NCBI GenBank assembly: GCA_963920765.1
Contig: OY987246.1
Coordinates: forward strand, 8,806,501-8,870,500
Origin: Ulota crispa
Lineage: Eukaryota > Streptophyta > Bryopsida > Orthotrichales > Orthotrichaceae
Direction of reading: 5' to 3'
Length of the DNA: 64,000 nucleotides
Of this stretch, positions 10,561 to 61,792 are shown piece by piece. The notes under the pieces are model-generated. The model did not search any database. It was not told the DNA's origin and saw only the letters and a program-made list of their open reading frames with translations. The translations under genes were made by a program, and so were the position numbers. Numbering within the stretch: position 1 is the first letter of the stretch; every line of letters begins with the position of its first letter.

Positions 10561-12978
10561 TCTTGTTTGCACTTTATACAGTCTCTTTTTTAAATTTAAG
10601 TGACTTTTCATCCTTCCTTTCCCTACCTTATTCTTCTCCCTCTCCCTCCTTTCTAATAGAGAATTTCAAACTTTATGACAAATAGACAATTGATCATTTA
10701 TAATAAAGTTATAGATTGAATGGATGCAACCTGGGGAGATATACTCATTCTCATCCATTTAACAAGTAAGCCCTTTATGTCTTGTGTATTGGGGCAATAA
10801 TCATGCGCATGGTACATAAATTCATGACCAATCCATATTTAGTTAGACATGGCATTGAAAATTTTTCATTAAAGAAAAGCGCACATAAATAATTTCTTTT
10901 AGGTCAATCATTTCAGTACATTGATCACTCAAATTCTTCTTTTTTATCTCGCAATTAAGGATTTGACATAATCATAAGTATTCTACACAAGTTATTTCAA
11001 TTAGGGCAATAACCTGATTACAAAGACCCCTTCGCACTGATTTGAAGTAAATTTTGTCTAACTATTATGAAATATTGTTTTGCCTTTCACCCTTGTTTCC
11101 CAAGAAGGGGTATTGACCACAATCTTTTGTCACCCTTTTGGTAATTATTTGGGATGTATCTTTTTGAAGCAGCATCCTTCACACACACTCTAGTTGAGAT
11201 ATATGCTCGCAAAATCCCCGTGCTTGTGTGAGTCAAACTATTTGAGATGATATTTGAATACTATAGCTTAAAATGGACTAAATTAATTTAGATTATTACG
11301 AACTCCTTATTAGAGGGCCTTGCAAGTTCACTTTTTCCTTGAATTAACCCCTAAATACTTGAAGCATTTTTTGAGCTTCTAGGAATTTGCTCTAAATCAA
11401 ACAAAAGCCAACATTTAAAAAATACATATAATTGTACTAATTCAAATTGAATATGTTAAAGATCACATAGGAAAAGAAAATACAACAACATCACTAATGG
11501 ATTGAAAGATTATAATGTTTGATCATGAGGTAGTTAAAACTTCAAAAATAACTTGAAGTCATTCAATCCTCTTTTTATATGTTGAATCTAAAAAATTGGC
11601 ACCAAAAATTGCAAGGTTAAAGGACAAAACATACATAACTCCAATCACTTTACAACTTTTTAAAATATCTTTTACAATTTTTTAAAATGAATTTCTAGTG
11701 TAAATTTGTTCTCCAAGATCTCATGTATTGGAGGCTCATTTCCAAGAGCTTTGAGTGCTAAGGTAAGAGCACCCGTGATAGTTTGTGTCCCCATCCCTAA
11801 TACCTACTTGTGTCAATGATGTCACTAGTTGACAATTAAAAAAAATTGGTTATGGTGAAAAATTGATGGTTATGGGTGATTGGCATGACAATTTTGAGTG
11901 CCCCATCTCACTATTTAAGAACTCCTCAAGTTAATATTATGAGCGTATGAGCACACTAAAGACATCTCCTACACACAACTATAGATTTTTCAAGAATTTA
12001 GGACTTTGAAAAATCTTTCCTGATCAAATGCTTGCAATTGGAACTTTCAAATTGATGCCAATATTTTTTATTTCGTCACCCCAACTTAACACTAATTTTT
12101 TTCAAAGTTCATAAACTAATTTTCCTACCTCAAAAACCTTAGTTTCACGCTAATGGGTGCTCCTACCTTACATTAAGCGAAGAGCCTTATACAAAATCTT
12201 GAATAGAAATATCATCATCAATTATTTTTAAAATCAGAGTTTTGATGCTTAAACTAGACTAAAAAAAGTTCAGAAATAAAAACTACTAAAAATAGCAACT
12301 TAGTTAAGTTTATGGAACTTCAAAGTTGTAGACGCCAAAAGTTGGTGCCTTATATATTTCGGGGTTAATGGAAATCAATGTCACCAATGAGGGACCCAAT
12401 AATTGAAATAACTTGTGTACTAAGTTATAGAAAGTCAAGAAGGATCAATTGAAGTTGCTGATTTGCGTTTATAAAAAGAAAGAAAAAAACAGTCATTTCT
12501 TTTCAAGAGTCCACTTTTCTAAATTTCTTCACTTCCTCAAAATTCCAGTTTTATTGCAGTGGAAAATCCTTAAAAGAGTCGTAATAAGGTTTCTTGACCC
12601 CTAAACGCCCAATTGGTAAGGGCAAATATACGTTATAAATGACACTTTTGTAATTTTCATGAAATCTACTTCAAAAGAGAAAATAAGAATAATAATGTCT
12701 AGTAATTATCCATACAATCAAACTTTCAAAAAAGTTTTGGACTCTTGTTTAATGAATTTAGAAGTATTTATCATTTAATATTCATCAAAATTGCAAATTT
12801 TATTCATAGTTCTTAAAAGTTGGTATGATTGGTTAAAAATAGACATTCTATTCTAAAACTCAAAAATGTAATGTTTTTGAAGGAGAGAACATCATTAGTT
12901 TTTTGAAATAGGAAACTTTATAACACTAGCAAATATTGAAGTGTTTGTTTTTGAAAAATTCTCTTTGGTGGAGTTTAA
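10561..12978. other. Intergenic stretch without a gene
   Basis: AT-rich, no coding signal seen on either strand. It holds the 11759-12172 MITE. Around 11344-11700 and 12195-12260 there is a relic of the 640-bp TTAA-CCC family (compare 42223-42867 and 53556-54192), apparently split by that MITE; its left end reads ttaacccctaaata and the right end is not recognisable. Confidence 0.6.
11759..12172. mobile_element. MITE, GTAGGAGCACCC family, copy 1
   Basis: Left end taaggtaagagcacccgtga; right end, reversed, taaggtaggagcacccatta. It is inserted in an older relic of the TTAA-CCC family. Related copy at 18284-18600. Confidence 0.7.
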
Positions 12979-13203
12979 CCCTTGAACGACAAGAAGGTCC
13001 TTTGTGGCTAGTACAATATGGGGTATTTTTCTTGTATTTGGAATGGATCCACACCTCTACTACATTTGAGATCAATAAAGAAGTTGGAGAATAGATCAAT
13101 GCGGTTCTAGTGAGCTACTTGAGATTCCAAATTAAAAAATTTGTTGGTAGCAAATGACAATCATATGTTGGCGTATATACTATGCCCTATTGTCATTCAA
13201 GGG
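12979..13203. mobile_element. TTAA-CCC MITE (225 bp)
   Basis: Flanked by TTAA on both sides (12975-12978 and 13204-13207). Left terminus CCCTTGAACGACAAGAAGG; right terminus reversed CCCTTGAATGACAATAGGG. The interior has no long ORF. TTAA target site plus CCC terminus is the piggyBac signature; a TA target site with an ACCC terminus would also fit. Confidence 0.75.
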
Positions 13204-13375
13204 TTAACTTGGACTCACATGATTCAAATTGGGTTGGAAAGTAGACTTACTTTTCTATATGAAGATATTTTTAATTTTTTCAAAAAATATATATTTTTCA
13301 TTTTGGACAACCTGCAAAAAAGGGCAGCAATTAGGAAATGGTCAATAGGGCATTTAGAGGTTGTTTGCAACCTCT

Positions 13376-13986
13376 AAGGCCTGGTTCAGACTAGCAACCG
13401 GTTGAGATACTGAAATTGGCACCATGTCCGGTGTTTCACGTGATAGAAACCTTTCTGTACAATTGTGTGTCATCCAAGAGTGTGCCTTTGCCAAACAAGT
13501 TTGGTACCACCCTTGGAGCAAGCCCCAAACTTCACTATTTTGTCTGCCAACATGGCTATATTGGTTGGTGAAGATGGATGTAAAAATATTGGGTAGACCC
13601 TTAGTCTGAACCTTGCATTGGTCAAAACCCAAATTTCAACCAATCACGTTCAAAACAAAATTTGCCAGTCGCTACACTGAATATTACATTTAGGTTGCCC
13701 CACACTAGTTTCTCAACATTTCACACTATTTAAATATTTACCGCTGCTACAATATTTTTCATCAAAAATTATTGCAGCAAACTTTTTTTAGAGGGCCTAT
13801 TAACAACAATGAAGCTGAAAAAAGACAAACTAATGACTTCCAAGTCATAAACCACGTGAAATCTAAATATTTAGTGGGTTGCATAGGCTTCCAAGTGACG
13901 AGTCATGAGGTAACTCACCAGGGTAAGGCAACCTAATTGTCAAGGCAACCTAAATGCAATATTCAGTGTAGTCTGAACCGGGCCTT
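13376..13986. mobile_element. Non-autonomous DNA transposon, 18-bp terminal inverted repeats (PIF/Harbinger-like?)
   Basis: Left terminus aaggcctggttcagacta; right terminus reversed aaggcccggttcagacta, one mismatch in 18. If the element begins at GGCC the flanks are TAA and TTA, resembling but not matching a 3-bp Harbinger target duplication. The right half is a copy of the CACTGAATA-GGTTGCC MITE. The element ends about 260 bp upstream of the S1FA-like start codon. Confidence 0.7.
13672..13971. mobile_element. MITE, CACTGAATA-GGTTGCC family, copy 2 (best preserved)
   Basis: Left ctacactgaatattacattt aggttgcc pairs with the right ggcaacctaaatgcaatatt cagtgtag, nearly 28 bp of terminal inverted repeat. 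Total about 300 bp. Its right end directly abuts the terminal repeat of the element at 13376-13986. Confidence 0.85.
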
Positions 13987-14021
13987 ATTGGCAAAGACAA
14001 CAGTGGAATCAGGCCTCTCGA

Positions 14022-14047
14022 CCAATGAGAGCCACCCTAGACGTCAC
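14022..14047 (+). promoter_or_regulatory. Candidate promoter boxes of the S1FA-like gene
   Basis: A CCAAT motif near 14022 is followed by GACGTCAC at 14040-14047, an ACGT-core palindrome of the kind bound by plant bZIP factors, about 200 bp before the ATG. Position and motif are visible; function is inferred. Confidence 0.35.
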
Positions 14048-14245
14048 AATCCGATACGAACGAGAAACACGCGGATGAATGAAAAATCTCCTCGCCAACA
14101 CATCCAGAGGACATATATGGATGACATCCGTTGAGTGTGTGAGAGGAGCAGTCAAACAGAAGCGCGAACTCTCCCTTCCCCTCTCCCACAGAACTGCTCC
14201 AAGTTTTTGCAGAAACAGAGGTTTTTGCTTGGCGGTCGCGGAGCA

Positions 14246-16015: not shown

Positions 16016-17068
16016 GTGGTTACAAGGCTCGTTGCATCTTTATGACAGGACTTTAATGTCTTGCGAGAGGTGCGAAGACAAAAAGGTAGAGAAGTTGTTC
16101 AGTTCCTTGGTATTGTACATTGACATAAATGCTTATATTTAATTTTATTTCCTGGCCAACATTGGTTAGTTAAGTTTCTGAGCTGGGCATCACTTTGGGG
16201 GCTAAACAGCTTGATCGTTGGTTTCTGAGTTTTGTATCTAAGAAGGGCTTGTTGAATGTGAGAGTGTGAAGTTGTTTCCTTTCCTTTTTTTTGAAGGCAA
16301 TCTCCAAGTTGTCTTCCTGCACATGTATGTATGCAATTGAGGAGATGAAACATGCGCACCTGCTGCATGTGGTGTGGCATACAAAAGAAGGATGGTCACG
16401 CAATTCTTTTGTGGTTAAGATTTAAGAGTTGCATGCTCTAATTTTATCGCTTAGAACTGCCAACAAAATCTACTGGAGGAATTTAGTTCTCCCAACAGGG
16501 TTAGACTTTTGTTAATACATGTAATACTAATCGGCTTGTTTAAACCCTAAATCCCGGTATAATAGTAGTGGCAACTCGTATATTTTGCTATTTTTTTGGA
16601 AGCCCAACCTCTTGCCTACTGGAAGTTTGTTGAAATTGAAGGAGCAGTTTATCAGGCTCTCAACAATATCATCGCATCGAGACTACTTTATAGAGATTGG
16701 CTTGCAGTTTGCAAAATTTGAGTGAAGTTCATAGTTGCATGTTTATTGAGGGGCGGTGATGTGATGTTTTGATAGCTACATTTTTTTATAGTTCTAAGTT
16801 GTAAAAGAGCAGTGCAATTTGTATGTTTACTTGAAAGCGTATATCTGCTAATGAAATTGAGCAATTGCACAAAAATGTAACAGCCTCAGAAAGCACTGTG
16901 AGTGAAGTCAATATTGGCCAGTTGGGGCAGCCTATTTGTGCCTGTGATGATATTGGAAACCCCTTCAAAGCATAGCAGGTTTCAGAGTCCGGTAGGTTTC
17001 TCAGCAAACTCTGTTTTGCCTTGCTCAGTTTTTTTTGCAAGAGAATAATATGTTCCTCATGCGTTTAA

Positions 17069-17310
17069 CCCCTGAGCGCCCAGCTCAAAATCCAGTTTAG
17101 ACAGACCTCCTTGCAGTCGAAGTGCCCCTACAAACTGAAAAATATAATCTACAAGATTGAAACCATACAAATTGTTAGTAGGAATCATCTCCATCGTGAT
17201 GGGCTTGATTGGAGGTGGTTTCATCAAAGGAGCAATGAGATTACCTCAGTCAAACTTGTGTTGACCCAACTTTTGGAAAGACATTATAATGTCTCCTAGG
17301 CGCTCAAGGG
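17069..17310. mobile_element. TTAA-CCC MITE (242 bp)
   Basis: TTAA at 17065-17068 and 17311-17314. Left terminus CCCCTGAGCGCCCAGC; right terminus reversed CCCTTGAGCGCCTAGG. No coding capacity. Confidence 0.75.
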
Positions 17311-18283
17311 TTAAAGGTTGGTATCTTGTCATTTTCTTTGTTTTCTCATGCAAGAGAGTCCATGTTTGCACTTTTTCTGCACTTTGATTGATGTGCAAAG
17401 TTTTTTGATTTTCTCAACAAAATGAAACTTAATTTTGTATAACATAACTCTTGTTTTCCTTTGCAAGAATGCTTCAAGAGTTTTTTGTTTTCTCTTAGGT
17501 TGAAACCTCCTATTAAGGAGCATTGTGTTATCTACTCCATAGACACTTCTTAGGAAAGACATTCCATCTACATGTAGACCATAGGGGAGGGGCTTTGCAT
17601 CCAAAGAAGTTACACTAAGTAAGAGTTGATACCCTACTTGAAAAGCAAGTCATTGATGCATACACCTAACATTTTCAAGAAGTTAATATTGAATATACCA
17701 TCCTTCTATCATCTAGTTTGCAAATGCTCACCTTGAATATTGCATGTATCTATACTTCAATTAGACATACTTTTGAATTTGCAACCAATTTATATCTTGT
17801 AGTTTTGAGGTTCAACTTATTTTTTATGCATTTTCACTTACTAGTGATACACTAAATGCTTATTCTCCCCCAACAATGGTATTGTGTAGCAATTGGAAAG
17901 ATGTGTTCCATCATGCAAACCAATGTGAATGTCTTTTAGGCTACTAGGGGTCGCGTCCCCGAACTTGCCATTGATAGTTTAACGACAAACATTTATGAAA
18001 ATGGAGGCAAGGTATAGTGGTAACCACCATATCCCAAGATACAAAGTTGGGGCAACCATTTCATGTGGAATAAAAATTCTAACTTTGCTAAAGCATTGCT
18101 ATCTTTAATTACCTTACACAAGGGCCTCCATATTGCTACTCTTGCATGGAGTGTTGCCACCCATGTAGAATGTGAATCATTATGCTATGGATTGTTTTAC
18201 AATTTGTTCCTTTTTCATCCACTACTTCACCCACAAGAGAGAACATTTCTAGCACAACATTGTAAGCCTCTCGCACAATAACT

Positions 18284-18600
18284 TGAGGTAGGAACCCCAT
18301 CCTTGTGAGGGTCCCCATAACCATCACCTTTGAAATCTTGGAAAATCTATAAAAGCAAAAAGATGTAATGACAAGGATTTACAACATGTGAAAATGAAAC
18401 CTTAGTGTTGTTTATGGGTGCAATGGTAGTTTGCTATTTAAAAATTCACAACTTATTCTCACGGTATCCAATTAATACATTCAAAAAAGCAAACTCATTA
18501 TTTTTTTGTTGCTAATAGGATCTTATAATTTGCTAGATGTTTATTAATAATCATCATGTTCAAAACCCTTAAACTCACGCTTATGGGTGTTCCTACAATA
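18284..18600. mobile_element. MITE, GTAGGAGCACCC family, copy 2 (diverged)
   Basis: Left ttgaggtaggaaccccatcc; right, reversed, ttgtaggaacacccataagc. The right end resembles that of the 11759-12172 element (cacgctaatgggtgctccta there, cacgcttatgggtgttccta here). Confidence 0.5.
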
Positions 18601-18865
18601 CACATAGTTAAATGTTACCACAAGTGAAGTGGCAAGGTGAGCTGTTACCAAGCAATTTTTAATAATAATCAGGATTCTAGAGTATATTTCAACAAGATTT
18701 TATTTTTAAAGTTAGTACATTGAATCTTAGATTACATGAAGTTCAAGGCAGTGTTTGAATATTGTGTGCAAGAATTGTAAGAGCTCAAAGTTTGATTGAT
18801 AAATTTTTCAGCTTCTTGGAAATTCACAACATTTATTATTGAGATAAATTAGGGTGCACTATTAA

Positions 18866-19776
18866 CCCCTAAAGGACCATGGTCTTTATTTTATCAAAAG
18901 ACACTCAAAGTTGCCCCTTCTATGGCAAAGAGTAAAAAAGTTTGAAAATTAGTCATTTTGCATATCTAATTGTATGATCTTGTACTAGATTACTATAAGA
19001 ATGTGTCATACAAAACTCAAGAACTTTGACCGCATAAGTTGGAAGATATTTGCATTTAAAATGTAGAAAATAACTTTTTTGCACTTGGCCTGACTAGATT
19101 ATTTAACTTTGAATTTTTTTAACTTCAATTTTTGCACCATAGAGTTTGGAATTCTATTTTTTTGTGGTGGGAAGTTGAGTTGGGAATCTTGAGAAAAAAA
19201 TTTAAACAAAAAAAAAAAAAATTCTTTCTTTAAAAAAAACATTAGGTAGAAGAAGGTATGAGATTGAACAAAAACTTAAATTGCTACTAATCCTACAATG
19301 GAATTGAAACGCAATAATCCCAATGGTGAGATTGTTCTAGAAAGCAAACTTTACACTCTCAAACAATTTTCTTTGAAAAAAATGTTATACTTGCATTCAA
19401 AAATGAAGTTTATAAGTTATTTTTTCAAGAAGATGCTTGAATTGCCCGAAAAACAAGATTGTTCATAACTTTCTCATAACTAGTCCAAATGAAATGAATC
19501 AAAGCTTTAGATGTAGACAAAGATATAATCTATGAGAAAAAAAAATTCAAGTTTTTATAAGAATTTTGTTTCGTTGCCTAGAGTCCCCAAATTTGTACTT
19601 ATTTGGGCATAACTTTTTCTTTCTAGCATCAATTGGAATGAAAGTTAGATTCCCCAAAAGCTAATGAGTTTTTCTATTTTCAAAAAAAGTTTCAAAAAAT
19701 AAGGACAAAAATTGAGGATGTAGGTACCTGCCCAAAATCCCATTTGTCCCCCATAGGGACAATGGTCTTTTAGGGG
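18866..19776. mobile_element. TTAA-CCC element (911 bp)
   Basis: TTAA at 18862-18865 and 19777-19780. Left terminus CCCCTAAAGGACCATGGTC; right terminus reversed CCCCTAAAAGACCATTGTC, 16 of 19 bases the same. It is the largest of this group here; no transposase reading frame is visible, so it is non-autonomous. Confidence 0.85.
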
Positions 19777-21639
19777 TTAAAGTACATACTTTGAATCTGC
19801 ATCATTAACTTTGAGGTCTTACCATCTATACGATAAAGGGAAATTTTGATGGATACCCGTGAAGTATGCAATATTTGTATAAATGTTGTTAGTTTTTCAG
19901 AAATTGCACAAATATCCTTCAACCATAAGTTTCCAACGTGTTTTTTTTGTTGTGCATGCCATTTCTGTCTCCCTTTGTGAGCACACTAATACTTTTTTCT
20001 TCTTTTGAGTTTGTGCAATTTCTAAAAATCCAGGGGCATCTATACAAATATTGCAAGATTAGGGGTATCTATCAAATTTTCCTACAATTAATGATATTTG
20101 CAAATATGTGTCTATTGGTTATATTATTCAAATCTAGTTCTTGATTCACTCTCCACACCCCACATTTATCCAAATAATGAGTGCTCTATAACCTCTACAA
20201 GTTATAAGGTACGTGTGTGCCTTGCATGCTCTTTGCTACATGTCTCTCTTTGCAAGTGGCTTTCACCCTCCATTTCCCTACCTTTTCCTCTTCCTTCCCT
20301 CCTCAAATTTTCTTCCATGCCTTTTCCTCTCCCTCCCCCTTTCTTGAATTTCCTTTTTTGGGTAAATGAGACACCCATGCTTGACATCCAATCTATATAT
20401 ATATAAAAGAATCTCATGGATTGTTTTGGATGAAAAGTAAAGAGTTTGAGTGCAATTACAAGTTGCATTCCATGCATGTAAGTTGCGCCTTTTACATTTT
20501 AGTTTATTTAACAAGTTGCACCTTTTATGCTTTTTATGGGTGCACTTTTTACATTTTCTATAGTGATCAACCCGTTGGTACAACCGGTGAGTAAACTAGT
20601 ACTTTATAATAGAAAATTTCAAACTTACAACAAGAAAGCTACAAAAAAAAAAATTTAATGACTTTTCACCTTCCCAGTGGATGCCCTCTCCCTTCCACCC
20701 TCTGTGATAGAACTTGCAATGTTGATAGAGAATTATATCACAAGAAAGACAACCAACTCTTTTTAATATAAGTTAAGACTTAAAACACACATTCCAATCT
20801 ATTCAATCCTAAAATTCCAAAATCCAATGTTAAGTTTTATGAGGAAAGTACATTATATGGTTTCTCATTGTAATTTGCACCTCTTCCAAAAAAGTATTAT
20901 ATTTTAGATAGTTTAGTTACTTGGTACGATTTTGACTTTAAAAAAAATTCCATGAAATTCAAGATTATCTAAGGAAAGTTGAAACCCCAAACTTGTAGAT
21001 ATCACCTAATTTTTTTAAAAACAAACTGAAAGACAAAAGGAAACCTTAGTCAAATTCTACGTGCAGTTTGACTTTGTTGGAGCAAGTTGGGACATCAAAC
21101 GGTTGAGAGGTACCACAACTTAAAGACTTTGTACCTCAAACCTCATCATGGAGACTGAATATCATGTAACGTACTCCATGAATAAATAAACTCAAAAGCA
21201 TTGAAGTGATGCCATGTTGCAATTGCAGATATTATGTCACCATCCAAACGTGTCTACAATACAAAAGAAAACAATTAATATTCAGTGTTTGCACTTGGGG
21301 GACAAATTTGAAGGTTTGTTGTTACGAATCTCCCTAGGTCCATAACTTCAATCATCCAAACATTCATATAAAACAATAATTTAGACACAATAAATTATAA
21401 AAACTAGAAGGAGCTCAATCACCCGACCATAGAGAGATTAATTCCCAACAAGAATTAATCTCCTCACCCTTCAAGCCCCATCTTGTACTATCAATCTTTT
21501 CATAAAAATAGAATCACTTTGACTATTTTTATCTTTCTATTTTTAACATTCATCTCCAACTCTTTGCTAGGGTAAAACTCTTAGTTACATTTAGAACTAT
21601 TCTAAATGTAAGTTATATCAAATCTCATCTTTTACTTGG

Positions 21640-22140: not shown

Positions 22141-23020
22141 GTGTACATATCATGTCTTTGTCCCCAAAGAAGCATTCTGTACACTTGTCATCAAGGGTAC
22201 ATCCCATGCTTTTGTCCTCAAGTTTTACATCCCGTACACTTGTCCTCAAAGGTGCATCTTGTACCCTTGTCCTCAAGTGTAGTACCCTTGTCATGCAAAT
22301 GGAGTTATCTAACTCCAATGCACAATTCCATCATCCAAAGATGTTTGCGTTTAAGGCTTTTCTTATTGCCCACTAATTCACATTTCACTGTGCATTAGTT
22401 CATTTATCAAGCATTCATCCATCAAGGGTCATGACATTTGTTTTAAAGAAATCAAGGATAGCAAAATTGTGAGATATGGAATTAAATAAAAACCATAATA
22501 CATTTCGATTGTTTTCTAAAAATCATATTTTCTTGAACAAAACAATTCTAATATATAGTGCAATTGGTCAACTGCAAAAACATGAGATTTGGTGTTCACT
22601 CACATTTCACACATTTGAAAATAGGATTTAATTGCATTATGAAAACCTTGTAATAAATGTCCTAATAACTTAAAATGGGTGTTAAAAATCATTGGATAAA
22701 AAACAAGCTTGATTTTTCAGAAAACACTAATCTATCCATATAAAAGGATTAGTTGAGTGATTTGATTGGTTAAGAAAAGTGTTGTAGTGGAACTTCTAGT
22801 GACCAGTTATAATTCATTATTAACAACCACATGAATTATGAAGCCCCTCATTTTGATTGACTAAGAGAGTGTGATGGTGCAACTTCCAGTGACGTGTTTG
22901 TTCTTTTTGCAAAAGACCAATAGGGGAGAGAGAGGTACATACATAAAGTGGTTTACAATGAGGTTTTACTTCGACTCTGGTTGCTAATGTTTGTGAATTA
23001 ACAAGTCACTCATGGTTTTA

Positions 23021-23447
23021 ATTTTTAAAGGGAATGACTAGGGGGACACCCCCCTATTGCTATGTGGACACCCCTATAGCCTAACCTATTACATTTGAGA
23101 TTATTATTAGGTTAAAATATGAAATAAAATCAAAACAATAGTTTAGCGCACATCTGCATCTACAAGAATTGCAAACATACAACAAATATATCTCATTTGT
23201 GACATAGTCAAGAGTTAGACTTAAAAATGAAGATAGCAGCTGGTTTAGCTCTTAAATATGTCACAAATGAGACATAGTTTTTATATGGTTGCAATGCTAG
23301 TAGACACAGATGCACGCTAAAATGTATTTTTTGATTTTATTTCTTATTTCAACGTAATAATAATCTCAAATTTAATAGGTTGGGCTATAGGGGGTGTTCA
23401 CGTAGCAATCAAGGGGGTGTCCCCCTAGTCATTCCCTTTTTAAATTG
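23021..23447. mobile_element. Long palindromic foldback element
   Basis: Arms of about 200 bp: left aagggaatgactagggggac accccc..., right its reverse complement with scattered mismatches. Complementarity continues through ggctata, aacctattaaatttgaga, gcgcatctg, caaatgagacata and the aagagtta region to near the centre. Confidence 0.88.
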
Positions 23448-27109: not shown

Positions 27110-27785
27110 TTTAGGGTTATGAATTTTTTTAGCAAGTACTTTAGTTGACAAGATTCTTTGTGCAAGAACTGTTAGTACCATTCTTTGGAGGGATTATTTC
27201 ATCTTTCATTTTGTGTTGGAAATTATAGGTATGGTGTTGTTGTTAGTGATTGGAATAAGAACACAATAGTATGGTGTTTTTCAATATTCACCAAAACAAA
27301 ATTTGAACGATTCATAAATCTTTCTTGGTTTTCGCTCCTTGTAGAGTTGATTATGTATTCTATTAGTTCTTTGGATTTGGTTAGACTTTTAGCATGCTGA
27401 CCTGGGATCAGATTTTCTTTCTTTTTGGGGGTGATACAGCCTACAGGAGGATCAGTCTGACCCTTTCTTCAATATAAAATCCTACATAAAGGAACATGAG
27501 TGGACTTGGTGTAGGGTTTGTGATTGTGCTAACTACAATTTGCAACTTTGGACTTGGCCAATGTTGGTTAATGTACTCATCTATTGTGTGTTTGGTGAGA
27601 TCATGATATTCGTACGAATACAATAAATTGTAGGTAAATTGTAGGTCTTTCAAAAAATTGTTATGCTTACATAAGTTTATCAATAGTTAAGAATAAAAAA
27701 CCAAGTGTTATCAATAACAATACATGGTATTTCTACATATGGATGGTTGACTAATTGACGACCAAGCCTACAAAGTTTATTGATA
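27110..27785. repeat. Segmental duplication, copy 1 (partner at 40870-41590)
   Basis: About 650 bp nearly identical to 40870-41590, in the same orientation, from tttagggttatgaattttt to gaccaagcctacaaagttta tt. Small indels separate the copies. It lies just 3' of the unidentified membrane-protein gene. No ORF is conserved convincingly between the copies. Confidence 0.85.
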
Positions 27786-31090: not shown

Positions 31091-31099
31091 GATTTCTAT

Positions 31100-41919: not shown

Positions 41920-43515
41920 ATTAGGGTGCCGAACCTTTGATTTCCGGATAACTTTATCCGGATAACTTTATCTTGAAATTCACCGAGAGTTATCTCAAAA
42001 TTCATCGAGAGTTATTTTGAAATTCACTGAGAGTTATTGGGTGGTGCTTATACAACATCTCATAGAATTGTCACCCCTTCCAAAGCTTCACAAACCACCT
42101 CATAATTATAATGGCTTCCTATGAATAACTTTTTCTCCTTTTCCCTATCCCATTATCATATTCCCCTACTCACACACGACTTGTCCTACCAATCACAATG
42201 CAACATGCTCATTAACCCTTAACCCTAGACCGCCCAAGGGGACGGAATGTGACTGCTATGCATTTTAATTTGAAATTTTTTACATTTATTGAAGATTAAT
42301 TTAAGTGGTTATTTTTTTAAATTATTCTTATTAAAGTCTTGTTTTAGTATCAAAAATCTGATTTTGAAAATGAATGACTATGATTTGTCTATTCAAGATT
42401 TTGTGCAAGGGTGTCCATTGCAAATCTTCACTTTCTAGTGTTGAGAGCACTCAAAGATGAGCCTCAAGTACACTAGAACTTGGAGAAATAATCACATTAG
42501 AAACTTAATTTAAAAAGTTATAGAGTAGATTTTAAGAAGCCGTAAATTGATTAGGGTTACACATGTTGTACTTTACATACTCAAATTTTTTTGACATCCT
42601 CAATTTTAAATTTGAGATGTGAAAAGAGGATTGAAAGATTTCAAATCACTTTCACAGTTTTAACACCCTCTTCATCAAATGATAACTTTTCAATCCATAA
42701 GTGATATTGTTGTGTTTTCTTTTCCTATGTGGTCTTTAACATATCTAGTTTGAATTTGTACGGTTACAATTTATAAAAAAATGATGTAACTTATCAAAAT
42801 GTTGCCATTCTATTCATCCAAGAGCACACCCTGAGATACTGGAGAACGTCCGTGGGCGGTTTTAGGGTTAAAGGACCGCTGGGTGGTCGTGGCCTGCCCA
42901 TACTGTAGGTTCAACAATACTTATACTGTAGCTTCAACAATGTTTTGGTTGATGGGCACCAATAGTATAGCTTCTAAAAGTTTCAAAAGTCAATAGTGCA
43001 TGCCTACCTCATGAAAATTGCAATAAGAGCAACTTGGAACCCAACATTGTGATTTTAAATTTTCTCACAATTTGGGTTACCTAAAAATATGAGTATATTT
43101 GATAAGATTGTTTTGTGCCTTCTATGATGGATCATGTGTTTATGGTCACTTTGGGAAAAAAAACAGATGAAAAACGACATTTTATGTTGTATAGATTGTT
43201 TTTTCAAGGTCATAGGACAAAAAACGTCCTCATGGGAGTTTAGGGGTTAAGCAAGTCAAGGAGGTGCTTCCCTACATGCTCATTGAGAGGCAGTCTTTGG
43301 CCAAGGTCACCTTATTGGAAGGGAGGGACCCCTACGAGATCACTTGATAACATTTTGTCAAAAGGGGCCATAACTTGTTTGAGTTATGCGGCACCTCTTG
43401 AGGTACTGGATAGAAGTTATTTGACCCGATAACTCACAAATGTTATCAAGTTATGTGGTGAACTCACTTGGAGTTATTGAGACAAAAACTCTCAGGTTTG
43501 ACACCCCCTATTGTT
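41920..43515. mobile_element. Outer inverted-repeat element carrying a TTAA-CCC element
   Basis: Left ttagggtgccgaacctttga and right, reversed, ataggggtgtcaaacctgag. Both ends carry short repeats with gagttat (about three 28-bp units at 41970-42060). The TTAA-CCC element at 42223-42867 is nested inside. A single TTAA-CCCC terminus at 43225-43250 marks another, unpaired element end. Confidence 0.55.
42223..42867. mobile_element. TTAA-CCC element (645 bp)
   Basis: TTAA at 42219-42222 and 42868-42871. Left terminus CCCTAGACCGCCCAAGGGG; right terminus reversed CCCTAAAACCGCCCACGGA. Its interior is homologous, in reverse orientation, to 53556-54192 and to the relic at 11.3-12.3 kb. Confidence 0.8.
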
Positions 43516-43545: not shown

Positions 43546-43847
43546 ATAAATAGTGCATTTAGGTTGCACTATCAATTAGATTGCCTTACCTTGAAAAATT
43601 ACCTCAAGACTCATTGCTTGGCCACTTAGAGGTGCATGCAACTTTCTAAATACTAAGACCACACATGGTTTACAATCGGGATGCCACTAATTTGTTTTTC
43701 TATAACTTTGTTGTTGTTGCCAAGCCCTTCAAAATTTGTAATTGCAGTGATTATTGATGAAAATTATGGTAGTGCCAATAAGTATTTGTATACTGTAGAT
43801 ACCATATAATTAGTATGGGGCAACTAAATGCATGAATTAGTGTAGTG
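43546..43847. mobile_element. MITE, CACTGAATA-GGTTGCC family, copy 3
   Basis: Left tagtgcatttaggttgcac; right ggggcaactaaatgcatgaa ttagtgta. The interior includes cattgcttggccacttagag and aataagtatttgtatactgt, as in the 10.1-kb copy. Confidence 0.75.
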
Positions 43848-52831: not shown

Positions 52832-52873
52832 CCTTACTGTCTTCCCCTGGCTTAAACTTGCTTTCCTAAGTTA

Positions 52874-53089
52874 GTTGCAAGGTTTGTGACAAAAGAAGTT
52901 GCAAGATTTGTGACAAAAGAAGTTGCAAGGTTTGTGACAAAAGAAGTTGCAAGGTTTGTGACAAAAGAAGTTGCAAGGTTTGTGACAAAAGAAGTTGCAA
53001 GGTTTGTGACAGAAGAAGTTGCAAGGTTTGTGACAAAAGAAGTTGCAAGGTTTGTGACAAAAGAAGTTGCAAGGTTTGTGACAAAAGAA
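52874..53089. repeat. 24-bp minisatellite (9 units) upstream of the PLD start
   Basis: Nine units of gttgcaaggtttgtgacaaa agaa, almost invariant (one aagatt, one agaaga). It lies 43 bp before the PLD start codon, so it falls in the 5' UTR, a 5' intron or the core promoter. Because 24 is a multiple of three it is open in most frames (EVARFVTK on plus, FVTNLATS on minus), but no start or partner exon suggests translation. Confidence 0.92.
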
Positions 53090-53229
53090 GATCGTCTTCT
53101 AAAGTTATTCTGCGGGCACAAACCGCAGATCAAACTTGCGAACTCATCCAAACAGCCCTGCACAAATATGTTTTGTCAGCAACCGACTCAAGGTAGACGA
53201 TGCTAAACCTAAGCTTAGTCCTGTCTCGT

Positions 53230-53515
53230 AGGAAATTAAGTTACGGCCAGTTTCCATGGACAGGGATCGGAGCGTACAAGCTCACTGGATCCTCCGTCCC
53301 CCTCGTCACATTCATTGACATCGAGTTTGCCCAAAGAGTTTGCCCAAACGCAGGGTCGTGCACGAGTGCGCAGGACCCTCCGATCGCCACCCCTCATCCT
53401 GAGTCGTCGATTTAGCTGGACTATGGGGAACTTTGATGGGCCCGGTTGGCTCAAGGCCGGGTCAGGAACTCCAGGCTGGTTCGGCCTGGTCCCCATCCTG
53501 TCGTTCAGGGTTTAA
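53230..53515. other. GC-rich segment upstream of PLD
   Basis: About 280 bp of unusually high GC for this window, open in several frames but with no recognisable domain. Most likely promoter or 5' UTR sequence of PLD, or an unclassified repeat. It contains a local duplication, agtttgcccaa twice. Confidence 0.4.
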
Positions 53516-53555
53516 TTTTTGTTTTAGGTAACCGTCCCCATACCCGAGCGTTTAA

Positions 53556-54192
53556 CCCCTTAACGCCCCTGGAATTTTGGAGTATCTTAAAATTTGCTTG
53601 AAAGTGAATAAAATGTCAGCATTTTGATTAATTTTATCAATTTTTTTGAAATGTAACCGTAAGAAAATATGTTATAGATTGTATATAAAAAGAGATCACA
53701 ACTATTTCACTTATGGATTGAAAAATTATAATGTTTGATCATGAGGGTGTTAAAATTGTGAAAGTGGTTTGAAGTCTTTCAATCCTCTTTTTGCATCTCA
53801 AACCTAAAATTGAGGGTACCAAAAAAATATGAGTATGTAAAGTACAACATGCATAACCCCAATCAATTTACGGCTTCTCGAAATCTATTCTACAAAAAAA
53901 TTTAAATGAATTTTTAATGCAATTTTTTCTCCAAGTTCTAATGTACTTGAGGCTCATTTCTAGGAGCCTTCAAGACTAGAAAGTGAAGATTTGCAATGGA
54001 CACCCTTGCACAAAATCTTGAATAGACAAATCATGTTAATTCATTTTCAAGATCAGACTCTTGATGCTAAAACTAGACTTCAACAACAATTTAAATATAT
54101 ATACCAACCACAAATAACATCTTGAAAAATCGTTCAATATCCCTAAACAAAATTCAGAGGGGTGTAAAAACCGCCCCTCAGAAATTGGGGGG
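53556..54192. mobile_element. TTAA-CCC element (637 bp)
   Basis: TTAA at 53552-53555 and 54193-54196. Termini CCCCTTAACGCCCC and, reversed, CCCCCCAATTTCTGAGGGG match poorly, but the interior aligns in reverse orientation with 42223-42867 (cttgaggctcatttctagga, gtgaagatttgcaatggaca, caaaatcttgaatagaca). Confidence 0.6.
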
Positions 54193-54196
54193 TTAA

Positions 54197-54418
54197 CCCT
54201 GGAGGGCCCTTGGGCTTTGGAGCTACGGTACCAAATATGGTTGCAACCAATATTCAGAAGTTTGAATCAGCTAGAAATTAAGTGTTACAACCATACATAT
54301 TAAAGGGTTGTATGATGGTGGGTGCATAAAAATTTTGGAAAGCCCTCAGAATAGCTCAAATACATTTGTACATACAGCCATACATGCAGTTGCAAAGGGC
54401 TTTTATGACATTCAGGGG
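54197..54418. mobile_element. TTAA-CCC MITE, sharing a TTAA with its neighbour
   Basis: Left TTAA-CCCTGGAGGGCCCTTGG; right reversed CCCCTGAATGTCATAAAAGCC, flanked by TTAG. About 85% like 61501-61738 over its length (tctggagctacggtaccaaa, catacatattaaagggttgt, atgatggtgggtgcat). Confidence 0.75.
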
Positions 54419-55560
54419 TTAGGGGTCTAGGGTACTTCAAGGTCTAGGAAAATTTAGGAAAAAAAATCAAAAGGATTAGCCTTTCAACAAGCTATCATGG
54501 AACCTAATTTTTGTGGAAAAAGTATTGTAGATTATTTTACATTTTAGGGCAAAGTTGCAGCTCATAGGATCCCTATTAGCGACTCTAGACTACACTTGAA
54601 ACTACTTAGATGTGTTCCTATACATGTACTTGACGGTCTCAATCCCAACCCTTCCAAACTAGCTCATAAATTGACATGTGGCATGATTTGCTTGTGCAAG
54701 TGGCATTCACTACTCCACTTTGGGTTCAAAGTGAGTGGTGGACACCTCAAAAGTAGGGTTTGGCTTTGGAAAACACTTAGGTATGGGGATGGTTACCTTA
54801 GAGTGACTTGCACCCCAAAATGCAAGTAGGTAAGGAAAGTTTAGCTAAAATTGGAACAAATCAATGATCAGCAGAAGCTCATCCAAAAAAACTACTAATA
54901 TAAGCTATTTTCATCCAAAATATGGTGAAATGGGTTTCAGCTCAAATAGGGATATGACAATTTCATCATATTTTTCACTAGAATTTCTTAGTGCAGTGGT
55001 CACCATCTCATTTTCAAGGTAAGATTTAGGCAAAATTTGCTAAGAAATTAAACGTTGTCTTTCAAGCCTAGGACATGACCTCCGTTGCATGGGTTGGCCA
55101 TGCTTTGGCTCATGGGCTGGGTTTCCGGGGCTAGGTTTCAAGCTGACTCCGCCTCTTGGAGTTAAATTAGATACTCCCATTCCATAGTGTTTAAGGGTTT
55201 GGGATACTCCAGGGTCTTGAAAAATTCAAGAAAATAATCAATAGGGTTAGCCTTTCAACAAACTATCATGGAATGTCATTTATGGAAAAAATCATTGTGG
55301 AATATTTTTATATTAAAGGGCAAAGTTACAACTCATAGGGTTCCTATAACCAACTCTAGAGTAACCTTCAAACTGCTTGGATGTGTTCCTATAATGGCAT
55401 TTGACTATCCAATCCCAACCTTCCCAAAATAGCTTAGCAATTGACATGTGGAAAGAATTGCTTGTCCAAGCAGCATTGAGTGCTCCACTTTAGGTTCAAT
55501 AGTGTATGATGAATCCCTCAAATCTAGGGTGCAGAACTGAGTGCCACTCAAGAATGGGTA
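54419..55560. repeat. Diverged direct duplication
   Basis: 54420-54840 and 55190-55560 are alignable (ggttagcctttcaacaaact atcatggaa, ttacaactcataggatccctat, cttcaaactgcttggatgtgttcctat, aattgacatgtgg...cttgt). No reading frame is shared, so it is non-coding. Confidence 0.65.
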
Positions 55561-58010
55561 TATCTACATTATATAGAATTGTGTGATAAACCTATATATG
55601 AACTATTAGAAATTACATTATCTTTTGCACTTGTATTGTTATTAAAATCATACTTTTTTAAATAAAAATAGGAATGATGTTTGTACCACACTATTTTTAC
55701 TGTTCTCCCACACCTTTTATATATGGTCAATATTTAAAATATTATATTAAATGTGGACCATGGGCAAAACATCACTAATTTAAAACTATAACTTGACATA
55801 GAAGTTGCAATTTTAACATTATTTTTTTGCTCTAAATTATGCTCATAGTCTCAATTAAAAACCTAGCTTATGCTAAGTTTAAGTTGGACTTTTTATTCAA
55901 TACTATGTGTGGAATTTAGAGATGAAATTGCAACTTCTATGTCAAGTTATATTTTCAAATTAGTGATGTTTTTCCTATAGTTCACAGTTATTATAATATT
56001 TTAAATATTGACCATATAAAAAAGATGTGGTAGAAAATGTTGTGATAAAAATATCAATTTGCAATAGCTTCTAATTTTTTAAAATTTAATTGAATTTGAC
56101 TAATTTTTTATCAAATAGTTTCAAATTTTACTTGGTTTCTTGCAATTTCAACTGGTTGACATTACACTAAATGCCAATTCTCTCCAAACACTAACAATAG
56201 AAGATTTTTTACCCTTGGAAGATTACCTTTGAAGGCAAACCAACAATCAAGAAGAATTGTCATCTTCTAGAAGGTGAATTGGTGAAAATGACAAAACACC
56301 AATGGAATTCTGAAACAAAATATCTAAAATTCTTAAAAAACATTGTATGACAAAAAATCAATCAACCAAACAATACGAAAAGCAAGAGAAACTCCAGCTT
56401 TATAATCTCAAAATATGGAATGTTAGAGTTGACTCTCTTTTAACCCCTAAATCCCGAAGGGTGTTGCAGATGGAGAAAAGTCTAAAACTGCCATTTTTTT
56501 ATGATTTATTCAAATATCAAAATAATAAAGTTTTCTTGAAGTTTTTACCATATCAAGGTGAGGCAGTATGTGAAAAAAAAATTAGCCCATTTGATAGCGT
56601 TGATTAAAAGATTATAACATTCATAATTTCATAAAAAGTTTTTTTTGGCCCTGTCTGAAAGGGACAGTAGACTTTGAGGCCCCTCATATGAAATTTTTGC
56701 TCTACACAAACTCAAGAATTAGGGGTATTCATAAACGTATGATGTTAGATTCAACCATGCAAAATTTTAGACGCAATTGAGATGTCTAACTCACTCTAAA
56801 TGAGCATGTAATATAAGGTGGTCAAAGTAAACAACTATACTCTAGCCAATGTTTAGGTTTTTTTTGCACATTCAAAAAAAAATTACAAATCCAAATGGTA
56901 AAGTGACGTAACTCCACATTGTTTACAAGTAGGGATAAGTTTTTAAGGAAAATTACTAAAGTATGCAAAGCTATGGTAATTCAAGCTTTGTCACTAATCT
57001 TAAAATCTCCTTCATGAATAAAGGAAGATAGAAAGAAAGAGTGACTTCTATATACCATCATGTTCAATAAAGATAAACCTTTTGTTGGCTCCATGCTTTA
57101 ACAATAAGCTACCAAACTTCTTTGATTTGGTGAGCTAAACAAACTGCTAGTTGCTTAAAATTTTCATTACAAATGGCTAATAATGGCAAAACCTAAAAAT
57201 AAAAAAACCATTTACGCTTTTCCCCTTTGTGGGTGAAGATTAAAACGACATCTTTCAAAACATCCCCTATGGCCGTACATATATTTGCCATTGCAATTTT
57301 GGTCAAATGTGTAAGGCCACGTCTTGCCATCATTGCAAACCACACAGTTTCCTCTCAAATTAGAGATTAAGGGGTAATAATATCCATTATGGCTTCTTGG
57401 TTTTTTGCAATTTTGTCCTCCCCATTATGTAAGAGAAGTTTGCTTGTATTTCTAGATGAAATTGAAAATGAGTCATTGGCCTTGACAGCTCTTTACCATT
57501 CTTACACTCATGAACACACATGAAAAATATGTTCACTGTTGTCATGTCTATTTGAAACATATATATTTTGCATGTCCCTTGGCAAGTCTCCAATAAAAAA
57601 CCATGCCAGAAACCCCATGCCAAGATCCTCAACCAAACCCCCACCAAGATTACTATTGAAGCTAATTTCAGGCAAAAAATTTCTTCACTACTCTCTACTT
57701 GCACCAAGTTGTCCAAGTAGTCTACATCATTTCAAGCATCATGAATGTTCACTCAAACATCTAATTGATTTTACTTTTCTTTTCACACAAAGGTATTCAT
57801 TGTATGCACCTTGTCTCCAAATTTTAGAAACATCCGCTTAATATTGACTTCATGGTTTGCCGTGTTGTTTCTCCTATTTTTTCAATGGGCTCTAGGTAGT
57901 TAGTCCAATTTCCAATACCATATGTCATTTTATTTGTTTGACTAATTTTTGTATACACTTCCAATGATAATAATCTCATTTTCTAATTATACACTAGTCA
58001 AAAAATAGCA
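55561..58010. other. Intergenic stretch without a gene
   Basis: AT-rich. It includes an inverted segment pair at about 55690-55800 and 55900-56030 (atggtcaatatttaaaatat tata; cataaaaaagatgtggtaga), and a lone TTAA-CCCCTAAATCCC terminus at 56440. No coding signal found. Confidence 0.5.
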
Positions 58011-58330
58011 GTGTTTTTGCCGTCCCAGGGCCCGCTCAAATGCCCGTGCTCTATTGATGATGCCCTGAGAGGAGGTAAAATAGCTGGCGAACCTGAAAAG
58101 CTCCTCGAAGTAGCAGCAAGCGCTAAAAGGAGTGCTTTTTCCCAAAGAAAGAATAGTCACGTGACACGTCATATGAATATAGTGGGACTGTTCCGAAGAA
58201 GAATGCGACTCTGAAACAGCATTGTTTCAAAGCACCTGAGTCCAGGCCTCCAGGGTACAAAAAGGCTGAGGTCCACGTGGCATGCAAATTTACAATATCT
58301 CTGCAATCATTCACTCCTTAACCCCTATTG
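58011..58330. other. Isolated higher-GC segment
   Basis: About 320 bp with a 67-codon open frame on the plus strand (DDALRGGKIAGEPEKLLEVA). No motif is recognised and no splice-compatible neighbour was found. It could be an exon relic or part of a retroelement. Confidence 0.25.
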
Positions 58331-58524
58331 GTCACAGGTTGTCTGCTGTCTTGTGCTTTATACAGATCCATATTATACTGATTGTAAAGTGTATCATGAA
58401 AGAATATTTTGCAAGTTGGTGGTTTGAATAAGAATTTGCACAATTTAAAGTTGAGATCTACCTATTGTTTATTTATATTCACATAAATTTGGAAACTTAG
58501 AATTCAAAATATCACTTGGAATCG

Positions 58525-58812
58525 ACTACACTGAATACTGCGTTTAAGTTACCCCACATTACTTTCATGACATTTTGCACTATATAGATACTTACCGATT
58601 CTGCAGTAATTTTTATCAATAATTTATCAATAATTGTAGTAAACAAATTTTAAAGGGCTTAGCAATAACAATGAAGTCATGGCAAAACGTATTAGTGGCA
58701 TTTAGGTTGAAAATCATGAGAAATCCTAACATCTAAAGAGTTGCTTGCGCCTTCAAGTGTCCAAATAATGAGTCATGAGATACTTTTTTAGGGTGAAACA
58801 ACCTGAATAGTT
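58525..58812. mobile_element. MITE, CACTGAATA-GGTTGCC family, copy 4
   Basis: Left ctacactgaatactgcgttt aagttacc; shared interior gacattttgcactatataga, aatttatcaataattg, gggcttagcaataacaa, gagttgcttgcgcc, aatgagtcatgagatac. The right end is decayed (aacaacctgaatagt). Confidence 0.75.
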
Positions 58813-59025
58813 AACTCTTAAATGTCCAAGGTATCATATTTTGAAATTTAAAAATTTTCATTAAACTTTGGAATCATGTTGAAGGCATAAGATTTGATTA
58901 TTTCAAGGTTTTTTTTTGACAAAGTTGTGGGCTGAAGTTAGCTTCAACGTTCAATTTTAATTTCTTCCATATCTTATTTCAATTGGGTAGAAGGTAAACT
59001 GCAAGCACACATTTTGTGTCATCAC

Positions 59026-59235
59026 TAGTAGAAAACTGCATTGAAACCCACTAAATTATGTCAAATTGTTTTTGTTGAGTTCCTTGTTTCCAACGCAAAA
59101 TTCAACAGAACAACTCAAAATTTTGCAAAATTTCAACGCAAAAACTCATTCCAACTCAAAAATCTACGTTGGAAACAAGGAACTCAACAAAAATAGCTAG
59201 ACATAATTTAGTGGGTTTCAAAGCAGTTTTCTATT
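59026..59235. mobile_element. Foldback MITE, about 70-bp arms
   Basis: Left tagtagaaaactgcattgaa acccactaaattatgtc... tgttgagttccttgtttcca acg; the right arm is its reverse complement. The centre is rich in caacgcaaaa/aactcaaaa. Confidence 0.88.
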
Positions 59236-59857
59236 CATGCATGAAAAGTGTCAGAAAGCCTATGACAAGCTGCCAGGTTGAAAAAACAGGCATCAAGTTT
59301 AGAAATAGGTGAAGATTTCCCTTGGGCACCTTGGGCAATAAGGGCCCTTTTATTGGAATTTGTCATCTAACAAAATCTAAAAGTGCTTTTGGACTAATTT
59401 CACTTGGAATATGTTTGTTGTAAAAATTAGAGTTCTTTTACCATTGAAATTTCTTTCATTCATAATGATTTTTGGTCAATAACTAAAGCTAAAAAAAATC
59501 TTTGTATTAGGTGGCCGCCCCTTGACAATTGCATTGCACGCTCATTTGTGAAACTATGGTAATTTTGTATCCAAAAGATGCCAACCTACATTAGGAGTTT
59601 CAGGCAGCTCTAAAAAAACCAGAAAATTATGTACTCATCCACATTCAATTAGCAAAATCCGCATGGCCATTTTAGATTATCTTTTTGGGTAGTGCCATCT
59701 AGAAGCCTTGGAGTTCAAGATTCTACGGTTACAATTTTGTTTTGATGTATAATGATGATCTTACAAGAACAATTCAAAAACTTCAAAAGTGTCTTCCAAA
59801 AACAAGAAAAACACCCTTGGGCATTTTGGGGTTATGGAAACCTAAATGCAAAATATT

Positions 59858-60145
59858 TAGTGCACATTAAATATTGAGATTAGGTTGCCCCTTATGAATT
59901 TCTTAACATTTTACATTGTATTAATACTAACTAATACTACAATAATTTTCACCAATAATTATTACAATAAATAAATTTCATAAGACTTGGCAATAACAAC
60001 ATTGCAAAATATCAAACTAATAGTATCCAAATCTTGTGAAATCTTAGTACCTAAAGAGTTGCATGCACTGCTTGGTGGTCAAGCGATGAAGCATGAGATA
60101 TATTTTTTGGATAAGGCAACCTAATTGTTAAGGCAACTTATTCTT
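59858..60145. mobile_element. MITE, CACTGAATA-GGTTGCC family, copy 5
   Basis: Left attaaatattgagattaggt tgcc; right aaggcaacctaattgttaag gcaac. The interior follows copy 4 closely (acttggcaataacaacattg, cctaaagagttgcatgc, aagcatgagatat). The two copies lie about 1 kb apart in the same orientation. Confidence 0.75.
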
Positions 60146-61496
60146 GTTGTTTAGGATACAAAATAAAAGCATCCTTAATGCAGCCATTAGAGGGGTTTAG
60201 ATATCTCAAAAAAACGGTGAACAAATGGTTGTGAACTAGTTTTTGTTCATTGGTGAATATGCTATCACGACCTTCGAAGGTTGTCATGGCTCGTTCATAG
60301 AGTAACTTGACCAGGCTTTTTAAGAATCTTATGCACGTGAACAATTTTGGTGCAGAATGCCATAATTGAAACCCTCTATTAAAGAGCCAAGCGAATGGTA
60401 CATAACATTCAATAGCCTAAAGAGAGGCTGCCTTTCCCTCTTTTCAAATATCATCCACACAATTCATCATGACAATTATTATTATTATCATTATTATTTT
60501 TCTTAACATGACTGGCCCCCACATTGACATATGTGCACTAAACTGAGCCTCTTTTTCATAAACTCTCTGACAAATTCAACCAAGTGTCCCCTAGCTAAAG
60601 AATGGTGTGGAATATTCTACACCATTCTCTTGGAGGGAGGGCAGCCTTTACTAGTGCTACTAAATGTTATGAACCTTGAGTTAAATTCGTGAAATATGGA
60701 AAATACGACAAGCCAATGTAGTCTCTACTTGGCTCTTTATTTTTGAAGACATTCCAAAAATTTGCCTTTGTGTTGTACAGTTTTTTTTCTTTAGTTGTGC
60801 TCTCCACTCCATTCATAATAGCTCAGTCGACATCATCATGGCAACAAATGCACCAATTAGGGCAAGAAAGGGCAAAACCCAAACATCTTGATAAGAACAT
60901 CAACTCTGTCAAAAACTACTGGTACTTACATGTCTCTCAAGATTAAAAAAAAACAGCCGTAAGGTAGAACCACCCATTTCCCAATCATTTAAGTTCATGC
61001 AAGGACAGCACATTAGAGCAACAATGAGGCACAAATTTTTTTTGGTGGCTTTATACAAAATATTGTAACACAAATTTTTTCGGAAATTTTCATGCAAAAT
61101 TGAATTATATACAAATTTTGAAGTGCTTAAAGTGTTTGGAGCCCATACACAATCACTAAACTATTCTAATCCTAATCATAGCCAAAACACTTCTTGCTCA
61201 CTACTTCCTACTTTCTTTTAGGGCACATGTCATGACCTCATTTGTCTTAATTTTGAAAAGGGAAATTTTATGCATTCCAAGGCTTGAAAATAGGCGTTGG
61301 AAATAGCACATCCTAGACTGGTTGGGTTTGGATCCCTGGTTGGGAATGGGTGGTTCTACCTTAATACTGCATCAAAAAAAGCTAATGGTTGGATTGCCAT
61401 GCCTTCTACAAACCTTCAAAACCTAATGGAGTGGAGCCCTTAAAATAATCACATTGTTATTGTGCAATCAATTAGCACTTTTGCATTGAAGATGCT
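60146..61496. other. Intergenic stretch without a gene
   Basis: No coding signal. A short att microsatellite lies at about 60477-60498, and gttctaccttaa-type repeat sequence recurs at 60965 and 61350 (ggtagaaccacccatttccc versus gggaatgggtggttctacct), an inverted pair about 390 bp apart that may mark another MITE. Confidence 0.45.
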
Positions 61497-61500
61497 TTAA

Positions 61501-61738
61501 CCCTTGAAGGGCCTTTGGGCTCTGGAGCTACGGTACCAAATACGGTCACAACCAATATTCAAAAGTTTGAATCAATTGGAAATTAAGTGTTACTTACAAC
61601 CATACATATTAAAGGGTTGTATGATGGTGGGTGCATATTTTTTTTTGGAAAGCCCTCATAGTAGCTCAAATACATCTATACATATGGCCATACATATGGC
61701 CGCAAAGGGCTTTCATGACATTCAAGGGTTATGGGTTG
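61501..61738. mobile_element. TTAA-CCC MITE (238 bp)
   Basis: TTAA at 61497-61500, TTAT at the right. Left terminus CCCTTGAAGGGCC; right reversed CCCTTGAATGTCATGAAAGCC. Sister of 54197-54418. Confidence 0.78.
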
Positions 61739-61792
61739 ATGATTTTGGAGTGAGATTTGTGACAATAGTCATTTTAGATGAGAGGATATTAT

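Follow-up and report, generated by a model that had tools for sequence, protein, structure and literature searches.

The sequence examined here (hereafter the window) is a 64,000-bp stretch of the genome of the moss Ulota crispa (contig C5, positions 8806501-8870500), in which eight elements bounded by TTAA are found that belong to five families, here called A to E. Six of the elements have TTAA at both flanks, the remaining two at a single flank. By size they comprise miniature inverted-repeat transposable elements (MITEs) of ~230-650 bp, a family of 919 bp and, within family A, a longer copy of 1,025 bp, and none of them contains a transposase of its own. From our point of view, they are almost certainly non-autonomous transposons of the piggyBac superfamily, which would have been moved by transposases of this clade that are by now mostly broken. 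The elements are given below with their window coordinates and, for four of them, the matching bases among the 16 of the terminal inverted repeats (TIRs).

11344-12368, + strand: divergent family A MITE with extra internal sequence and TTAA on both sides; TIR 11/16; 74.5% identity to the copies at 42219 and 53552 over 310 bp
12975-13207, + strand: family D MITE of 233 bp, TTAACCCTTGAACGACAA...TTGTCATTCAAGGGTTAA; TIR 14/16; TTAA at 12/12 ends (6 copies)
17065-17314, + strand: family C MITE of 250 bp, TTAACCCCTGAGCGCCC...GGCGCTCAAGGGTTAA; TIR 13/16; TTAA at 50/52 ends (26 copies)
18862-19780, + strand: family E non-autonomous element of 919 bp, TTAACCCCTAAAGGACCATGG...CAATGGTCTTTTAGGGGTTAA; TIR 14/16; TTAA at 32/32 ends (16 copies)
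42219-42871, - strand: family A MITE, reversed; 81.6% identity to 53605-54106 over 516 bp; two transposase-bearing elements have left ends that match its 42219 end
53552-54196, + strand: family A MITE of 645 bp, the right TTAA of which is common to the next element; TTAA at 30/30 family A ends examined
54193-54422, + strand: family B MITE with right flank TTAG at 54419-54422; 85.8% identity to the 61497 copy; placed in a 33-copy alignment
61497-61732, + strand: family B MITE with right flank TTAT at 61729-61732; TTAA at the right end of all 31 other fetched copies

Families and termini in the window

Self-comparison of the window groups 42219-42871, 53552-54196 and 11344-12368 in family A and the 54193 and 61497 copies, which align over 240 bp, in family B, and the elements at 12975 (D), 17065 (C) and 18862 (E) represent separate families. 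Likeness between the families is confined to short stretches near the ends, and at an E-value of 1e-3 only B and D share such a stretch (33 bp at the ends, 82% identity). A preliminary description of the window, which had regarded the elements as one family, therefore has to be revised in this respect, and its set of seven was incomplete since it missed the family A element at 11344-12368. Its seven start coordinates were right, each being the first C after TTAA, and so was its view of the copies starting at 54197 and 61501 as sisters with TTAA on one side only.

When TTAACCC/GGGTTAA pairs are counted without gaps and with at least 11 of 16 terminal bases matching, four are found in the window (11344-12368, 12975-13207, 17065-17314 and 18862-19780), compared with a mean of 0.005 and a maximum of 1 in 200 first-order Markov simulations. 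The match of 13-14 of 16 terminal bases in the D, C and E elements, together with termini that start with C's, is of the kind that marks piggyBac elements. Four elements, namely those starting at 12979, 17069, 18866 and 42223, had been credited with paired termini and TTAA on both flanks. This holds for the first three; the fourth is indeed bounded by TTAA but reaches only 10/16 in the ungapped comparison and hence lies outside the four pairs counted here. Two right ends, 42871 and 43250, tie for this element, and the latter was dropped because the alignment with the family A copies fits at 42871. The fifth element (53556) does have both TTAAs and poorly matched termini, as described before, which can be put down to decay since other family A copies have well-paired ends.

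Target site and copies across the genome

Copies of each family were sought in the whole genome of the same organism (274.8 Mb in 157 contigs, with C1 to C10 of 15.8-41.4 Mb each and C11 of at least 5.08 Mb). For each family 40 candidates were scored, and the copies fetched are the best-scoring ones. First-look candidates amounted to 4,265 for family A, 2,108 for B, 423 for C, 4,217 for D and 3,855 for E, from which the scored sets gave 41, 42, 41, 45 and 43 matches, respectively. For A, C, D and E, most of the matches listed span the TTAA-to-TTAA query from its first to its last base. The median pairwise identity, which refers to best-scoring copies (their number in brackets), is 87.4% for B (32), 87.9% for C (26), 92.3% for D (6), 90.1% for E (6) and 93.9% for A (6).

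Of 190 ends in the fetched copies, 183 carry an exact TTAA. This total includes one copy from the window for each family; it excludes the window copy at 54193 (left TTAA, right TTAG) and, for L097 and L098, the right ends, as these fall outside the match. By family the tally is 59/64 for B, 50/52 for C, 12/12 for D, 32/32 for E and 30/30 for A, and a point against our interpretation is that the counts for A, C, D and E are biased towards TTAA, because their copies were gathered with queries that held TTAA and only the best-scoring ones were taken. The least biased count is that of the right end of family B, where TTAA is present in 31/31 other fetched copies although the query (61497) read TTAT. 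The TTAG of the 54193 copy and the TTAT of the 61497 copy can consequently be regarded as point changes, that is, as single-base departures from TTAA.

It was on account of these two right flanks that the preliminary description had allowed for MITEs of the mariner/Stowaway type, which would have a TA target and an ACCC terminus. One empty site alone indeed cannot part TA from TTAA, as T-TA-A reads the same in both cases. The reading fails nevertheless, because conservation of the outer T and of the outer A holds across many insertions (at the B right ends of all 31 other copies and at 183/190 ends overall) and because the transposase found between such termini, as described below, is a DDE_Tnp_1_7 protein and not a mariner one, and we hence consider it most improbable. 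Tourist-type elements of the PIF/Harbinger superfamily, for which a 3-bp TAA/TTA duplication is given in the available part of a recent review (PMC10004981), were rejected as well, as four conserved bases, TTAA, are found on both sides.

Empty sites were sought, as paralogous sites, by comparing 76 joined flanks with all sequence collected. In 23 of the 76 a match crosses the site; seven of these are displayed, and the other 16 include matches of a query to the locus it came from and repeats of a copy in the window. A host repeat holds a D copy in L085 and a C copy in L117, both at one position. In L046 this position is unoccupied and reads TTAA once, and L046 aligns across it at 92.7% identity over 205 bp (the two gap positions fall elsewhere) and at 93.0% over 71 bp. 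For another C copy (L118), the empty site is found in L085, again with a single TTAA. A further D copy (L086) lies inside a B copy, and the 10 B copies displayed, out of 37 crossing matches, are empty at this place with a single TTAA each. The empty paralogues align without a gap at the site and show one 4-bp site there, which in the best-conserved cases reads TTAA. Insertion hence duplicates a 4-bp TTAA target, as in piggyBac, and its preference over TA rests on the conserved outer bases named above. The same host repeat that is occupied in L085 and L117 also forms the flank on one side in L130, an end window of family E, and can be regarded as a repeated target.

In 23 of the 190 ends, another CCC follows across one shared TTAA, as is seen for the 53552 and 54193 elements in the window; TTAA followed by CCC is found at 21 of the 880 TTAAs of the window (both strands, element ends included).

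It could be argued that such pairs are chance occurrences or a satellite and not transposons at all, the more so as TTAACCCT is no rarity in this AT-rich genome (15,198 forward matches versus 13,103 for the reversed pattern). The copies are, however, dispersed on many contigs, have exact boundaries and mostly unrelated flanks, and empty sites exist for them, and we give this possibility practically no weight. Genome-wide there are 4,477 exact TTAACCC/GGGTTAA pairs with a span of 219-249 bp, as against 60 pairs of the same span for a control with the inner triplets swapped (TTAAGGG/CCCTTAA) and 162 for the reversed control of that swapped pattern. The reversed control of the TTAACCC pattern itself (AATTGGG...CCCAATT) gave 1,834 exact pairs genome-wide, which is unexpectedly high for background. 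These pairs, an example of which is C1:287797-288021, look like an unrelated inverted-repeat family rather than background, because most of the listed lengths cluster at 223-226 bp; none was found in the window or in the other sequence collected.

piggyBac transposases of the same genome

The DDE_Tnp_1_7 domain (PF13843) has 120 matches on contigs C1 to C11 (116 scored of 528 candidates; best E-value 1.3e-73; all listed matches above the cut-off) and none in 14 control genomes. Only 10 of the 120 matches are free of stops, among them the frames at C1:1180709-1181995 and C4:3591922-3593028, and the transposase copies are mostly broken. Of 30 fetched loci, 27 match another locus over the domain at the DNA level. 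Because the best-match identities are 64-78%, apart from 90.5% between L009 and L018, the copies must be either old or of many lineages.

At two loci, an element of ~5.0-5.1 kb has TTAA-CCC termini with a DDE_Tnp_1_7 transposase between them, which is the arrangement of piggyBac. The first, on contig C3 (L009), measures 5,027 bp, has the ends CCCCTCATCGCCAA and CCCTTCATTGCCAA, and starts with TTAACCCCTCATCGCC and finishes with GGCAATGAAGGGTTAA. A second copy of it (L018/L040) is 90.5% identical over 5,029 bp, and homology stops at the same two ends, with TTAA as its right and TTCA as its left flank. The second element, on contig C2, extends from 696 to 5797 of a joined locus (L159 and L014), has the ends CCCTTGACCGCCCA and CCCTTCACCGCCTA, starts with TTAACCCTTGACCGCCCAAGGG and reads TTAACCCTTCACCGCC from the other side, with a PF13843 match inside. 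The frame of L009 is broken by stops, and its protein pieces are DDE_Tnp_1_7 (E 6.1e-61 and 2.4e-9). One piece aligns with the Trichoplusia ni piggyBac transposase over D268 and D346 (6x67; phmmer E 1.6e-25), and its phmmer match to 9c0f has an E-value of 2.7e-21. With D447 included, the DDD triad appears to be retained in the L009 pieces, as judged from these alignments; the residue numbers are those given in the available part of a piggyBac paper (PMC7351741). A further locus, L019 (C2:34594948-34595949), holds a stop-free frame of 389 amino acids for a piggyBac transposase that aligns to piggyBat over the corresponding DDD motifs. No TTAA-CCC ends were found in the ~8 kb around it, and it is perhaps a stranded or kept transposase gene.

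To relate the MITEs to these elements, 60 comparisons of 30-base ends between MITEs and transposase elements were made with 1,000 shuffles as null. Against the left ends of the two transposase elements, family A reaches scores of 15 and 18 with its 42219 end; two further right ends of this family reach 13 and 14 with the C3 element, and the right end of family C reaches 12 and 11 with the two ends of the C2 element. In all these cases, none of the 1,000 shuffles attains the score. Judged by these end sequences, a tie between MITEs and transposase elements is established for family A, is weaker for C and is not firm for B, D and E. The search for a DDE_Tnp_1_7 transposase within the same termini, which had been proposed earlier as a check, hence succeeded at two loci and for family A, and fell short for the latter three families. 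The other proposed checks, namely to collect copies and align their borders and to find empty sites, speak for piggyBac-like MITEs as had been supposed, with the exceptions named in the next paragraph.

Several observations weigh against this interpretation, in addition to the bias of the TTAA counts. The empty paralogue of L072 (one displayed) reads TTAG, those of L103 read TTAG three times and TCAA once, and those of L090 lack TTAA in 4/4, albeit in all three cases still with no gap at the site. Within ~1.5 kb of the 30 transposase loci, no terminus pair was found, relaxed ends included, and of the four loci that were extended (L009, L018 and L014 leftward, L019 in both directions) two yielded both ends. 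The alignment over D447 is weak (phmmer E 0.05), next to the Pfam match of that piece at E 2.4e-9. Among the 60 end comparisons, scores that 0/1,000 shuffles reach are confined to family A, at a single end, and, less strongly, to the right end of C; the matches of B and D are weak (11-14 of 1,000 shuffles reach them), the B right end having been placed two bases too far outward in this comparison, and for family E there was no match to the transposase elements in the 60 comparisons. Finally, movement of the elements was not observed.

In this context, families B, D or E might partly represent Kolobok-type elements. Kolobok elements also use a TTAA target, and the duplication of TTAA alone is compatible with them, as is the fact that E has no tie to a piggyBac element here. 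The CCC-type termini of the MITEs are, on the other hand, like those of the piggyBac-transposase elements, closely so for family A, and we consider a Kolobok contribution very unlikely, though no search was aimed at a Kolobok transposase.

With the piggyBac interpretation, the following course can be imagined. Transposases of the same clade would have bound the terminal sequence shared by the MITEs, which would then have been cut out leaving TTAA overhangs and reinserted at other TTAA sites, mobilised in trans by piggyBac chemistry. The latter, according to the available part of the literature, involves TTAA hairpins, seamless excision and integration at TTAA (PMC7351741). As each inserted copy brings TTAA at both ends, inserted copies would become targets for one another and give rise to chains with a shared TTAA.

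The families A to E cover 5.4% of the window, 5.0% of 93 kb flanking other MITE copies and 0.15% of 134 kb of transposase loci. This is suggestive of MITEs being scarce around the transposase copies as compared with MITE-rich gene-bearing regions, and it is only suggestive and no genome average, since the window and the flank samples were chosen around MITEs.

Window genes, plant host and known piggyBac elements

The assignment to a plant in the preliminary description is borne out by the window genes, in particular by minus-strand pieces of a plant-type phospholipase D at 45.0-51.2 kb, in which C2, PLDc and PLD_C domains are recognised and of which one has 103 of 230 residues identical to Arabidopsis PLD alpha 1. 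A DnaJ protein is encoded at 28.5 kb. Besides the families A to E, the window holds four inverted-repeat (hairpin) elements (55703-56035, 4277-4499, 59029-59233 and 23020-23446) with arms that are 85-94% complementary and without TTAA-CCC ends, which are perhaps MITEs of other superfamilies. An unclassified divergent repeat of up to ~290 bp is present in five copies at 66-80% identity (10087-10234, 13672-13963, 43549-43845, 58525-58794 and 59864-60140), and unclassified repeats of ~730 bp form two pairs at 92-93% identity (40015-40750/61786-62521 and 27095-27781/40868-41592). A match to the bacterial small RNA ES036 of Rfam at 27606-27648 (38.8 versus a threshold of 37.6 bits) is likely due to chance.

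piggyBac transposases have a C-terminal cysteine-rich (zinc-binding) domain. With piggyBac of T. ni and piggyBat of Myotis lucifugus, the elements described here share the TTAA target and its duplication, short TIRs and a DDE_Tnp_1_7-type transposase with a DDD triad. They differ from both in that the L009 frame is broken by stops and that the host is a plant, and the bounded transposase elements of ~5.0-5.1 kb are longer than T. ni piggyBac, for which 2,472 bp is stated in the available part of one paper (PMC10140906).

piggyBac is a kind of transposon known above all from animals, and MITEs related to it occur there, with TTAA flanks. As far as the available parts of the respective papers go, they have been described in coral (PMC2872659) and as mPok1 and mPok2 in Daphnia (PMC4912750), and like the elements of U. 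crispa they are short, non-coding, high-copy relatives of piggyBac. What sets the latter apart is the plant host and the presence of several families in one genome of ~275 Mb, with first-look candidates in the thousands for four of these families.

In plants, a 2025 survey of MITEs in 207 genomes, four of them from bryophytes, lists five superfamilies and one special group, and the portion of it that is available holds no mention of piggyBac, TTAA or Kolobok (PMC12550479). The elements reported here resemble those five superfamilies, as far as described in that portion, in being short, non-autonomous and high-copy, and differ from them in target sites and termini. In the available text of a 2022 review on land-plant transposons, the word piggyBac does not occur (PMC9033089). 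Against strong novelty, it has to be said that a 2023 review counts PiggyBac among seven MITE superfamilies of angiosperms (PMC10004981), that plants are named among the hosts of piggyBac (PMC10140906, PMC10813416) and that a repeat table for a fern has a PiggyBac row (PMC6890710), each according to the part of the source available. No title describing native piggyBac elements in mosses was among the literature matches listed, and the mentions for Niphotrichum (PMC10619864) proved, in the text available, to be the word 'piggybacking'. The kind of element is hence already known, and the novelty lies in the host and the scale.

piggyBac is a widely used tool in genome engineering, and its native occurrence in plants is thinly documented. 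Thousands of piggyBac MITEs together with more than 100 transposase matches mean that the superfamily can thrive in a plant. We somewhat favour the view that piggyBac has long resided in this land-plant lineage and forms a diversified, dominant class of DNA transposons there, with many divergent lineages of transposases on contigs C1 to C11 and several MITE families that crowd gene-bearing regions in their thousands and are nearly absent around the transposases. If this is true, pipelines that are built on five MITE superfamilies could overlook such elements, and our results suggest that surveys of plant transposons should take in elements with TTAA-CCC ends. The origin of plant piggyBac, be it old inheritance or transfer, thereby becomes testable by phylogeny.

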